Source: Bacillaceae bacterium (GTDB lineage Bacteria > Bacillota > Bacilli > JACDOE01). Taken from it: a stretch of 51,346 nt of DNA. The stretch spans positions 1 to 51,346 of the forward strand of contig JACDOE010000014.1 of assembly GCA_017656255.1 (NCBI GenBank), in the 5' to 3' direction. The notes below the pieces were generated by a model. The model did not search any database and was not told the origin of the DNA. It worked only from the letters and a program-made list of their open reading frames with translations. Both the position numbers and the translations under genes were made by a program. Positions 26,562-30,860 of this stretch are shown one piece after another. Each line of letters begins with the position of its first letter. The stretch's first letter is position 1.

Positions 26562-26736
26562 GTTTATACTTTTGTGTTACAGCTTTTTATTAAGATAAAC
26601 AATCACCTGATTCTTATTCCACAATTGGGATAGGGTGTATGGTGATTTTTTTGTGGTAAAATATAGTAAAACAATTCGTGCGGAGGATATAAAAATTCTT
26701 AAACTAACGGTGAGGATAAAAGAGGTTGTGGTGAAA

Positions 26737-27144
26737 ATGTCTGTTAAAAGAGATAACATGATTGCGTCACTAAAATCAATTGTAGTTCCTATACTTAGAG
26801 AGAAAGGGTTTAAAGGCTCTTTTCCACACTTTAGAAGAATTACCGATAACAAAATCGACTTAATGACTTTTCAATTCGACAGATATGGAGGAGGGTTTGT
26901 AATTGAAGTAGCAGTATGCTCTCCAAAAGGCTTTACAACTCATTGGGGAGAAGAAATACAACCTAACAAAGTGAAGGCTCATGACTTACATCCTTCAGAT
27001 AGAATGAGGTTAAAAGATAAAGACGGTCAATGGTTTAGGTATGATGAGAACAATTTGTTTGGCAATATATACGACAAGGTTGCTAAAGAAGTTTTAACAC
27101 ATCTAAAAGAAGCAGAAGATTACTGGGAAAATACGAGCATATAA
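26737..27144 (+). CDS. DUF4304 domain-containing protein
   Basis: A 135-residue soluble protein that matches the DUF4304 pattern as I know it: MIASLKSIVVPILREKGFKGS, then FRRITDNKIDLMTFQFDRYGG and a tail with WFRYDENNLF. Function is unknown; such genes are common among orphan immunity genes of polymorphic toxin loci. The start is ATG 26737; GTG 26731 is an alternative closer to AGAGG. Base composition is much more AT-rich than the housekeeping genes upstream, which suggests transfer. Confidence 0.75.
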   Translation: MSVKRDNMIASLKSIVVPILREKGFKGSFPHFRRITDNKIDLMTFQFDRYGGGFVIEVAVCSPKGFTTHWGEEIQPNKVKAHDLHPSDRMRLKDKDGQWFRYDENNLFGNIYDKVAKEVLTHLKEAEDYWENTSI

Positions 27145-27212
27145 TACTAAAACCTTATTATGCTAACGGGATAAGATGAAAATTATCAATCAGGGGTGGG
27201 GTGGTATTTATT

Positions 27213-27638
27213 ATGTATGAACTAGAACTAAAAAACCTTATTGAAAATAAAAGTGTTCATAAATTAACTGGAGCCTCTGAAGAGAAAGTAAAAGAAATTG
27301 AAGATACATTAAATGTGACTTTACCTAACAGTTATAAGTGGCTATTGAAGGAGTATAGTTCAGTTAGTTTTGAGGGTCTAGATATTAATGGTATTGGCTT
27401 GAACGGTGTTCATATAAGTTTAGCAAATACAATGGATTGGAAAGAGTACGATATTCCAGATGGTTATGTTGTAATATTTGAACCAGGAGCCGATTGGATT
27501 TATTGTCTGGATACAACACAACTGGAAAATGGAGAATGTCCTGTTGTTGCATGGTATCAAGGTCAGGATAAAGGTGAAAAAGAAGCTGATAATTTATATG
27601 AATTTATAAAAAAACAATTAGAAGAATTAACTGATTAG
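27213..27638 (+). CDS. SMI1/KNR4 (SUKH) family protein
   Basis: A 141-residue SUKH-superfamily protein. The N-terminal LTGASEEKVKEIEDTLNVTLP and SYKWLLKEYSSVSFEGLDI are the usual family opening, and GDYVVIFEPG-like and YEFIKKQLEEL segments follow. Bacterial SUKH proteins are mostly immunity proteins against secreted nucleases and deaminases, but no toxin is adjacent. ATG 27213 is preferred over GTG 27201. It belongs to an AT-rich cluster of immunity-type genes. Confidence 0.85.
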   Translation: MYELELKNLIENKSVHKLTGASEEKVKEIEDTLNVTLPNSYKWLLKEYSSVSFEGLDINGIGLNGVHISLANTMDWKEYDIPDGYVVIFEPGADWIYCLDTTQLENGECPVVAWYQGQDKGEKEADNLYEFIKKQLEELTD

Positions 27639-27676
27639 GCTTATTCAATTAATGGGGGCAAAGTTTAATAGAGGTT

Positions 27677-28033
27677 GTGATTATTACGGACAAGAAACTA
27701 ACAGAGGTATATGATAATTGGCAAGATAAACTTGATGCAGACGAATGGTATTTTAGTAATGTATTTGAATCAATTTCAGGGAACATGTCCTCTGATACTG
27801 CTTTTAACTATATTCCCGAAGATATATATATACTTTTAGAGTTAGATGAGGATTATTTGATTTATGAAACACTCTATTTTTTAATTGATTTATATAGAAT
27901 TGCTAATACCTCTGAAATACACCCCAAACTTGAAGAGAATTGGGATGCTTTAAGACAACATATAAAAATGTATAAGGATTCATATTCAACTCCTTATCAG
28001 GAATTGAAAAGATTATTAAGGATTAGCAAATGA
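27677..28033 (+). CDS. Small acidic protein of unknown function
   Basis: A 118-residue, acidic, helical protein. Recognisable features are NWQDKLDADEWYFSNVFESI and LLELDEDYLIYETLYFLIDLYR. I do not recognise the family. Size, charge and position between SUKH and barstar genes suggest another immunity-type protein (inference). GTG 27677 has GAGG only two bases upstream, so the start is not secure. Confidence 0.6.
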   Translation: MIITDKKLTEVYDNWQDKLDADEWYFSNVFESISGNMSSDTAFNYIPEDIYILLELDEDYLIYETLYFLIDLYRIANTSEIHPKLEENWDALRQHIKMYKDSYSTPYQELKRLLRISK

Positions 28034-28099
28034 AGGTTTAATACACTTTTATTTTTTTCGGCAAACTTATTGTTCATTTATTTGATTTTGAAGAAATAT

Positions 28100-28128
28100 T
28101 TGTAAGGTGTCAAATCCCGGGTTATAAT
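28100..28128 (+). promoter_or_regulatory. Promoter of the candidate antitoxin RNA
   Basis: TTGTAA and a perfect TATAAT are separated by 17 bases. It points towards the terminator at 28171-28217, giving a transcript of about 80 bases with no reading frame. Confidence 0.7.
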
Positions 28129-28134
28129 ATAGAT

Positions 28135-28217
28135 AATCCCCAGAGTGGACTGGCTCAAGGTATTCCTATCGAAAATAGACCGGTATCCTCAGCTCAAGGG
28201 CGGTCTATTTTCTTTTT
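28135..28217 (+). ncRNA. Candidate antisense antitoxin RNA
   Basis: The predicted RNA runs from just after the promoter at 28100 to the terminator at 28217. It overlaps the 3' end of the oppositely oriented 22-codon toxin frame, including its last codons and stop. Overlap at 3' ends is the arrangement of B. subtilis type I pairs such as txpA/RatA and bsrG/SR4. The exact ends are estimates. Confidence 0.6.
28171..28217. terminator. Shared terminator of the toxin-antitoxin candidate
   Basis: A 12-bp perfect stem GAAAATAGACCG/CGGTCTATTTTC surrounds an 18-base loop. On the plus strand it is followed by TTTTT. On the minus strand it lies right after the toxin stop codon and can end that message too. 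Confidence 0.82.
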
Positions 28218-28273
28218 AGTATTGAAACAATTAGCATCCCGAACATTAACAAAAGGGATAATAACACCGTCAT
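28205..28273 (-). CDS. Candidate type I toxin, small holin-like membrane peptide
   Basis: A 22-residue peptide: MTVLLSLLLMFG followed by the membrane-type stretch MLIVSIL and a basic end KRK. It fits the pattern of annotated holin-like type I toxins of Bacillus (start M-x-V, LMxxFG core, basic tail). A very strong ribosome site, AAGGGGGTGAG, lies five bases before ATG, and it is buried in a long hairpin (28275-28310), as in type I toxin messages. An antisense RNA overlaps its 3' end. It is too short for ordinary gene finding. Confidence 0.68.
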   Translation of the reverse strand: MTVLLSLLLMFGMLIVSILKRK

Positions 28274-28274
28274 A

Positions 28275-28310
28275 GGTCTCACCCCCTTTTAAGAGGGGAT
28301 GAGCCAGACC
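28275..28310 (-). promoter_or_regulatory. Hairpin that sequesters the toxin ribosome site
   Basis: On the minus strand GGTCT-GG-CTCATCCCCT pairs with AGGGGGTGAG-ACC (one wobble, small bulge), leaving an AT-rich loop. The right arm contains the ribosome site of the toxin frame. A possible minus-strand promoter, TTCAAC-N16-TACACT, lies upstream near 28340-28370. Confidence 0.6.
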
Positions 28311-28517
28311 ACCCTTGAGGAGCCGTTACCCCTAAATAGTGTAAAGACGAATGTTACCGGTTGAAACATGATATTTATCTAACACTAATTCTAACTGATT
28401 CGGTAAGACTCTGTACCTATTTCTTGCATTCTATATATTTTTACTTACAGAAGACAGCGGGGAACCTGTTACATATTTTTAATGCTATTTTTAATTTTAT
28501 AAATCGGAGGTCGGCGA

Positions 28518-28997
28518 ATGGAGTTGTGGAGACAATTATTATTAAATGGAGCAATAAAGTTGTTTTGGAGTAAAGATGTTTTAGAGGATTATATAAATGA
28601 AATAACAAAAGAAAAATTTAATATCTATAGTCTTGATTGTTCTAAGTGGAACTTAAAAAATTACCATGAGTATTTGGCATCTTCACTTCACTTTCCAGAT
28701 TATTATGGTAAGAATTTAGATGCTTTTAACGACTGTTTATCTGATATGATTCCAGAAGGGATAGGTATCTGTTTGGTGTTTAGGAACTATGAGTTTTTTT
28801 CCAGAAATTATCCAGAAGATGCATATCATATTTTAGATATAATACAGCGCAACTCCTGGCGTTTTTTACTTCTTGAGGATAGAAAACTAATTGCTTTTGT
28901 GCAATCCAATGACCCAACAATTGGCTTTACAAACTTGGGTGGAATGTCTGCGGAATGGAATAATGAAGAGTGGCTAAACAAAGCCCGGGGTATATAA
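28518..28997 (+). CDS. Barstar family protein
   Basis: A 159-residue protein with a barstar domain from about residue 34: FNIYSLDCSKWNLKNYHEYL, then the signature FPDYYGKNLDAFNDCL. Barstar proteins inhibit barnase-type ribonucleases, and homologues serve as immunity proteins for secreted RNase toxins. The first 30 residues are an extra helical part. The start follows CGGAGG. No barnase-like gene is seen in the window, so it appears to be an orphan immunity gene. Confidence 0.88.
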   Translation: MELWRQLLLNGAIKLFWSKDVLEDYINEITKEKFNIYSLDCSKWNLKNYHEYLASSLHFPDYYGKNLDAFNDCLSDMIPEGIGICLVFRNYEFFSRNYPEDAYHILDIIQRNSWRFLLLEDRKLIAFVQSNDPTIGFTNLGGMSAEWNNEEWLNKARGI

Positions 28998-29380: not shown

Positions 29381-29629
29381 CTATTTCATCACACGAATAT
29401 AGAAATGGATGTCCTGTCCCATCTTTTTAGGTTCGCTGATAAGTTCATAGCCATGTCTAACGACCTCTTCGGGGACACTGCGGGATGATTGCGGACAATC
29501 GGCAATGACTTGCAAGACTTGACCGGCTTTCATTGTTTTTAGCGCATCCAGCGCATAAATGACGGGATAAGGTCATGGCTCGCCACGAATATCCAGGATA
29601 TAATCTATTTTGCCAATCACCTGTGACAT
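29381..29629 (-). CDS. TusA-like sulfur/selenium carrier with in-frame TGA at the CPxP cysteine (candidate selenoprotein)
   Basis: Reading through one TGA gives 82 codons from ATG 29629 to TAG 29381. The product starts MSQVIGKIDYILDIRGEP, then the TGA codon (29573-29575), then PYPVIYALDALKTMK and VIADCPQSSRSVPEEVVRHG. TusA/YeeD proteins have the active cysteine exactly there, in CPYP. The frame stays open and family-like after TGA. A hairpin GCGC-TGGAT-GCGC lies 19 bases downstream, with GG in the loop, as a bacterial SECIS needs. The gene begins two bases after the YeeE/YedE-like gene, a pair proposed for selenium or thiosulfate uptake. The alternative is a nonsense mutation in a decaying operon, since the upstream gene is frameshifted. 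Confidence 0.72.
29542..29554 (-). promoter_or_regulatory. SECIS-like hairpin
   Basis: GCGC-TGGAT-GCGC on the minus strand, with further TTT/AAA pairs beyond a 2x2 internal loop. There are 23 bases between TGA and the loop GG, within the spacing of bacterial SECIS elements, and a G falls in the first two loop positions. The stem is short, so this is suggestive only. Confidence 0.5.
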
Positions 29630-29631
29630 GT

Positions 29632-30860
29632 TTATGCCTCCTTTGTTCTGTGAGAAAGTTGGTTCGTATCGGGCTTTTTAAACCCGCTGCCATAACGGTA
29701 TCGGTTTTCCCACCAATTGGAGAGTAAAAACCAGACAAGAAGCATCGCAATCGTACCCAACAGCGCTCCTGTTGATCCCCACACATTAATTAAGTTTACA
29801 GGAGTCCACGATTTAACCAGTGCATCGAAAATGCCAAAGTGATCCCAGCCATATGCCAGTACAGTTGCCCCTACAACATTGCCTATCCCCACGACCCAGA
29901 ACAACAATTGTCCTTCCATGGCACGGTACATCATACCGGTTTCACATCCACCCGCTAAAACAATGCCAAATCCGAAAAGCAATCCTCCGATAATCGTACT
30001 GGGAGCGGCTACTTTAATGAGGGCAGCGGACCCAGTCTGTATGTAAAAAAACGTAACGACGACACTAATCATCATTCCAACGGCGATCGCTTTGGACATA
30101 ACGGCACGTCCACTCACCCACAAATCACGAAACGCTGACGTAAAGCAAATTTGTCCGCGTTCGATAAGAATTCCGAAAACAGCTCCTGCAACACTTGCGA
30201 TAGCCAAAAGCGGCTTTCCGACAGCGATGAAGTAGAAACAATACCCATGTAAAGGAATGCGACCAACAAACCTATAATGGGTTGTATATTCATGCTGTTA
30301 GAATCTTTGGTAACAATGGGTTGTGAAGTTCCTTTCTTCAAATCCGGTTTTCCGAGCCACCATCTCGTATTTACAACTTTAACACCCAGGAAGGTTCCAA
30401 TGGCTGTTGTAACCATGAAGATCCATGAATGAAATGAAAACTGGGGGACACCAGTAAAAAATGCAGCCAGGTTACAACCAAGTGCAAGACGTGCTCCAAA
30501 CCCCGCTATAATACCACCAATAAAACCCTGTACCAGGCGGCGCTTTTGTCTGGGGACACGAATCTTAAAATTATTGCTCAGTAAAATAGTAACAAGTGCT
30601 CCAATCAACATGCCGATAACAATCCATCCATCTGTTCGCTCCAGGGGTGTTCCTTGCATTCCAACGAGTTCAAAATACGCCCACTGAGAAACATCGACCC
30701 CAAACCATTGTAAAATGTGTCCACCGAATCTGGTAAATTCTCCAGTAACCGCCCAAACTGTGCCGGTTAGACCAAAATACAACGCACTAACTAACCCGGC
30801 TATGCTGATGGCCACATAGGGGTTCCAATATTCCCGGAAAATTTTCTGGGAAAGATTCAT
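29632..30860 (-). pseudogene. YeeE/YedE-type transporter gene with a frameshift
   Basis: Two overlapping frames together make one YeeE/YedE (sulfur/selenium transport) membrane protein. The first (30860 to about 30240) has repeated transmembrane segments and GFGARLALGCNLAAFFTG; the second (about 30240 to 29632) has LLAIASVAGAVFGILIERGQICF and LAGGCETGMMYRAMEGQ. The join near 30240 reads GTTTCTAC on the minus strand; one more T would restore YMGIVFYFIAVGKPLLA. This is a true frameshift, a sequencing error or, less likely, programmed slippage. The two conserved cysteine motifs are intact. It is followed by the TusA-like gene. Confidence 0.85.

Follow-up and report, generated by a model that had tools for sequence, protein, structure and literature searches.

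The locus analysed here raises the question of whether the TGA codon inside a small gene for a TusA-like protein is a nonsense mutation or encodes selenocysteine (Sec). The gene lies in a 51,346-nucleotide stretch of DNA, hereafter the window, from a draft genome of a Bacillaceae bacterium (3.41 Mb, 36 contigs). An earlier note, made from the sequence alone, had proposed a selenoprotein gene at 29381–29629. These coordinates were right; the strand, on which the note was silent, is the minus strand, and the gene runs from 29629 to 29381 with 82 codons when TGA is translated as U. The features of the locus are as follows.

29381–29629, minus strand: yedF/fdhU-like candidate selenoprotein gene of 82 codons, from ATG at 29629 to a TAG stop at 29383–29381 (family matches).
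29573–29575, minus strand: in-frame TGA, the putative Sec codon, residue 19, at the CPxP cysteine position (translation and homologue alignment).
29540–29557, minus strand: SECIS-like hairpin, its GCGC/GCGC core pairing 29554–29551 with 29545–29542 (comparison across relatives).
29637–29642, minus strand: AGGAGG ribosome-binding site, 7 nt before the yedF ATG and within the 3' end of yedE (direct sequence reading).
29632–30860, minus strand: yedE/fdhT, selenium metabolism membrane protein of family NF033796, with ATG at 30860 and TAA at 29634–29632 (family match).
30225–30240, minus strand: single-base frameshift in yedE at about 30235, one base missing (comparison with Mesobacillus maritimus).

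Read with TGA as U, 29629–29381 gives the product:
MSQVIGKIDYILDIRGEPUPYPVIYALDALKTMKAGQVLQVIADCPQSSRSVPEEVVRHGYELISEPKKMGQDIHFYIRVMK*

As the note had observed, a single TGA (codon 19) takes the place of the CPYP cysteine, and translation confirmed 63 codons between it and the normal TAG stop. The claim that a conventional gene caller misses the gene also held: the list of open reading frames contained no ATG-, GTG- or TTG-initiated frame of at least 80 aa covering yedF in frame, and a stop-free alternative to readthrough was rejected on this ground. The protein scored 71.4 bits against the Pfam TusA model (PF01206) and, with C for U, 99.5 bits against the NCBIfam YedF model NF008242 (cut-off 79). 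Its scores against the TusA sulfurtransferase model NF001423 (37.2 bits, cut-off 78) and the TsuB/YeeD model NF041048 (30.5 bits, cut-off 147.5) were too low for membership. By these profile scores the protein is a YedF/FdhU protein rather than a generic TusA, so that the label TusA-like was correct at the Pfam level and can be narrowed; the predicted TusA fold is set by family membership. Its best match among solved structures was PDB 1je3, which we take to be Escherichia coli YedF, the name being read from the amyA–fliE position of the entry. Beyond the TGA, the gene showed strong purifying selection against those relatives for which it was computable (dN/dS about 0.05–0.12), and no further lesion was seen in the window yedF.

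Other features were observed in the same window. The minus strand at 28116–28337 matched the BsrG type I toxin RNA family (70.3 bits, gathering threshold 55), and a 25-aa open reading frame at 28205–28282 on that strand could encode its small hydrophobic peptide. A run of immunity-like genes on the plus strand (26635–28997) comprises a DUF4304 gene, a SUKH family gene, an unmatched 118-aa open reading frame and a barstar gene; no toxin gene was seen beside it.

An alignment of relatives, which the earlier note had called for, showed TGA exchanged with TGC or TGT at exactly the same codon. Family and order searches returned the genome of the window alone, so a named genome collection and a class sample were used. 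The scan of the collection gave 51 related loci, with TGA at this codon in 38 and TGC or TGT in 13. The class sample of 399 genomes contained 30 with a match, five of which repeated genomes of the first set with identical positions and sequences; reading of each site gave 17 TGA and 13 Cys forms. One locus, L105, was considered as a TGA form and rejected, as the TGA there is the gene's own stop and the gene is a Cys form. Counting distinct loci in distinct genomes, the window included, 51/76 carry TGA and 25/76 carry TGC or TGT. TGA forms occur in Neobacillus, Cytobacillus, Mesobacillus, Schinkia, Siminovitchia, Calidifontibacillus, Brevibacillus massiliensis, Aneurinibacillus and Tumebacillus, and Cys forms in Paenibacillus, Cytobacillus gottheilii, one Aneurinibacillus, Pelosinus and others. 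A second cysteine, residue 45, is conserved in both. A tree of 69 proteins, whose forks are poorly resolved, needed three changes between the TGA and Cys states. Within one genus (code g14), two loci (L107 and L108) and a third (L090) represent two Sec-YedF subtypes, NLEGEPU and DIRGEPU, which suggests paralogues or transfer.

The Sec elongation factor SelB followed the TGA forms closely. In the first set it was found in 37 of 38 TGA genomes versus 2 of 12 Cys genomes (locus L081 left out), and in 12 of 13 versus 2 of 12 among the further genomes of the class sample, in which SelB occurred in 84/399 genomes overall. Taken together, 49/51 TGA genomes and 4/24 Cys genomes tested carried SelB (Fisher p 2.6e-12, with counts that are not independent of descent). 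The two TGA-form genomes in which SelB was not found were G035, a metagenome-assembled genome with its yedF locus on a short contig, and G155. The latter (locus L101) has a tRNA-Sec and is a draft rated 100% complete, in which the absence of SelB reflects either a missing contig piece or a recent loss.

The hairpin was as the earlier note had described it, GCGC-TGGAT-GCGC with 23 bases between TGA and the GG of the loop. The loop, UGGAU at 29550–29546, begins after a spacing of 22 nt; below the core lie two A-U pairs, with one unpaired U at 29555. The published bacterial SECIS model has a stem of 4–16 bp, a loop of 3–9 nt, a G in the first two loop positions and a distance of 16–37 nt from UGA (PMC13188914). 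With its 4-bp core stem, 5-nt loop, G in second position and 22 nt, the window hairpin fits this model; the model's energy limit of -7.5 kcal/mol was narrowly missed on folding 37 nt (-7.3) and reached on folding 60 nt (-9.7). The folding energy of the single window sequence was not significant (z -1.6 and -0.11), and the case for a SECIS is for this reason built on comparison. Every TGA form carries GCGC-UGGAN-GCGC or ACGC-UGGAN-GCGU 18 nt after the UGA, and none of the 44 distinct TGA sequences lacks any of the four core pairs (176/176 cells). Four rows of two lineages have A-U in place of G-C as the outermost core pair, a coupled change: L061 and L062 (Schinkia type), and L101 and L103 (family code f36, as Tumebacillus). 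The two substitutions, at the first base of post-Sec codon 7 (Ala to Thr) and at that of Leu codon 11 (CTN to TTR), occur jointly in these rows. The core pairings are mostly absent from the 24 distinct Cys forms. TGA forms keep fixed codons under the hairpin, with GCG, CTG and GCG wherever Ala, Leu and Ala are kept, and the same residues elsewhere in these genes use many codons; the mean share of the commonest codon is 0.92 under the hairpin versus 0.59 in the rest of the gene. By this fit and these coupled changes, the hairpin is judged a bacterial SECIS, as proposed. One Cys-form gene in a SelB-bearing genome (L116, genome G267) keeps three of the four core pairs (ACGC-UGGAG-GCGC), possibly a relic or a precursor of a SECIS.

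A search of the window's genome for selA, selB, selC and selD, also suggested by the note, recovered all four. SelB scored 379 bits, over its cut-off, and a tRNA-Sec with anticodon tca was present; selA, selD and mnmH lie in one region of contig C8 together with a selenate-type ABC transporter binding protein (TIGR04553). Since selA, selB, tRNA-Sec and selD are present, the genome has every part needed for decoding UGA as Sec. Its SelD itself has an in-frame TGA (SKSG-U-GCKIG; locus L027, about 7347–8422 of contig C8, plus strand) and would be cut short by a plain gene caller, because the listed open reading frame starts after the TGA. The formate dehydrogenase alpha subunit FdhA likewise has one in-frame TGA (locus L119, contig C9:22083–24101), giving at least three candidate selenoprotein genes (yedF, selD and FdhA). 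Elsewhere in the sample, genomes G169, G188 and G289 each gave two over-cut-off tRNA-Sec matches, the second being weaker at 50–53 bits.

Because the TGA is conserved and exchanges with Cys, is accompanied by a SECIS, and stands in an operon of a genome with Sec machinery, the UGA of yedF is very probably decoded as Sec to give a Sec-containing YedF/FdhU. Sec insertion in the cell, which we infer from sequence, is near certain. The two findings that the note had named as fatal to its proposal were a genome without selB or selC and random nonsense decay of the gene; neither was encountered, the machinery being present and yedF free of other lesions.

The adjoining gene bears on whether the system is still in use in this strain. 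The note had called the upstream neighbour YeeE/YedE-like; NF033796 identifies it as YedE/FdhT, and not as a YeeE of the thiosulfate type. Its stop lies 2 bases from the yedF ATG. Missing from the note's description was a one-base frameshift near 30235, which splits yedE into two frames, 30114–30860 and 29632–30207. Both halves match NF033796 (the whole yedE of Siminovitchia fortis, L073, scores 553 against a cut-off of 350) and are 75% identical to Mesobacillus maritimus yedE on either side of the frameshift; no other lesion was seen in the window yedE. In the relatives examined, yedE precedes yedF in the same orientation, and in nearly all it is one open frame; Neobacillus piezotolerans (L079) has a yedE likewise split, at a different place. 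The gene order in S. fortis is selA-selB-yedE-yedF(U)-LysR_Sec_metab, and Brevibacillus massiliensis (L063) has LysR_Sec_metab-yedE-yedF(U) with selB within 6 kb. The frameshift may stem from a mistake in the assembly at this point or from a mutation of recent date, in which case the yedE-yedF pair may no longer be functional in this strain. A recent mutation would mean that UGA encodes Sec in the relatives and that the operon was lately disabled here, leaving yedF(U) freshly orphaned. This is possible, if on the unlikely side: the rest of both genes is undamaged and conserved, the distal gene yedF is preceded by an AGGAGG site of its own, and in a draft of 36 contigs an assembly error of one base would give the same picture.

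On the favoured reading, the 82-aa TusA-fold Sec-YedF/FdhU would be expressed from an operon shared with the membrane protein YedE/FdhT. The hairpin, whose loop begins 22 nt past the UGA, would direct SelB and Sec-tRNA(Sec) to place Sec at residue 19, where members of the family have their carrier cysteine. Delivery of a selenium species to the inner membrane face is probably the task of YedE; there the YedF selenolate probably takes the selenium over as a perselenide or selenosulfide and probably hands it on to users such as SelD. TusA is characterised as a carrier, as is the fused TsuA-TsuB, whose structure 8k1r was among the structure matches, and the membrane protein encoded together with yedF belongs to the same transporter family. 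Both points speak against Sec-YedF being a redox enzyme or a selenium-detoxifying reductase instead of a selenium carrier, an alternative that we regard as doubtful. It draws on the conservation of Cys 45 in TGA and Cys forms and on the proposal that YedF acts in selenium-related redox processes (PMC5322559). The co-occurrence of yedE and yedF with selD has been described (PMC5322559), and FdhT and FdhU control formate dehydrogenase activity in Campylobacter jejuni (PMC4178425); deletions in Methanococcus maripaludis tied no tested transporter, YedE included, to selenium species (PMC11097638). Because of the association of YedE/YedF with selD, the C. jejuni FdhT/FdhU pair and the design of TsuA-TsuB, we favour with moderate confidence a role of Sec-YedF as a selenium carrier.

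Two further readings deny that UGA encodes Sec. Decay of yedF through a nonsense mutation, to which the frameshift in the adjoining yedE lends something, is very improbable: the TGA is old because it is common to 51 loci of many genera, the 63 codons past it are under strong purifying selection with no other lesion, the hairpin codons are frozen, and yedE is open in nearly all relatives. It is scarcely credible that another tRNA reads UGA (by suppression or as Trp) or that UGA is a regulatory stop with restart at an ATG 14 codons on, since that ATG, invariant in TGA forms, has a methionine counterpart in 76% of Cys forms, a restarted product would be without the carrier residue, the codon exchanges with Cys alone as expected for Sec, and the SECIS-type hairpin accompanies TGA forms only.

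The Sec-containing YedF proposed here resembles several known systems. Like YedF itself (NF008242; 1je3), it has a single TusA-fold domain with a CPYP motif and is encoded beside yedE, but known YedF carries Cys, whereas the window form would carry Sec from a UGA with its own SECIS. The C. jejuni FdhT/FdhU pair, in which FdhU has Cys, also joins a membrane protein to a TusA-like partner, and the window neighbour matches the YedE/FdhT family; the window pair differs in being a Bacillales operon with a Sec form, and the likeness is one of description rather than of sequence alignment. TIGR03527 (selenium_YedF) shares an N-terminal TusA domain and a link to selD, but it is a two-domain model of 194 positions with a DsrE-like half, against which the window protein scored 26 (cut-off 110). 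TsuA-TsuB thiosulfate uptake (YeeE-YeeD; PDB 8k1r) has the same architecture of transporter and TusA-like acceptor; it is a sulfur route using Cys, and the window pair scored far below the TsuA and TsuB cut-offs. A Sec-containing YeeE/YedE transporter family protein (GUxSG; PMC13188914) is a selenoprotein of the same transporter superfamily, with Sec in the transporter and not, as in the window form, in the small partner.

Supplements aside, no TusA/SirA/YedF selenoprotein appears among the prokaryotic selenoproteins tabulated in a 2026 review (PMC13188914), in a 2022 review (PMC9312934), or in PMC12013277 or PMC5029168; nor does one appear among the families of Haft and Tolstoy 2025 as summarised in PMC13188914. 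The available portion of a 2008 study of selenium metabolism (PMC2432076) reports no Sec form of SirA-like proteins. The literature on TusA, SirA or YedF as a selenoprotein yielded no Sec form, a comparison that covered publications rather than RefSeq annotation, and the window protein's matches in NCBIfam release 20 included no dedicated Sec model. A prior mention in literature or databases may exist; Sec-YedF nevertheless appears to be an uncatalogued selenoprotein within the route by which the cell supplies itself with selenium, with TGA and hairpin in about 50 genomes.

The donor system that supplies selenium to SelD is described as incompletely elucidated (PMC13188914), and no dedicated selenium transporter is known in any organism according to the M. 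maripaludis study (PMC11097638). YedE and YedF are standing candidates for selenium import and hand-over to SelD. Sec at the proposed carrier residue points to selenium chemistry there and offers a labelled handle for direct tests. The gene is small and widely conserved, and annotation based on stop codons would truncate or overlook it. We give an even chance to the broader proposal of a class-wide Sec-YedF family in which the selenium-delivery carrier itself contains Sec and two supply steps depend on their own product. If it is true, Sec-SelD and Sec-YedF would be two successive supply steps, each requiring the product that it helps to make, and such a self-reinforcing loop could act as an on/off switch for selenium use.
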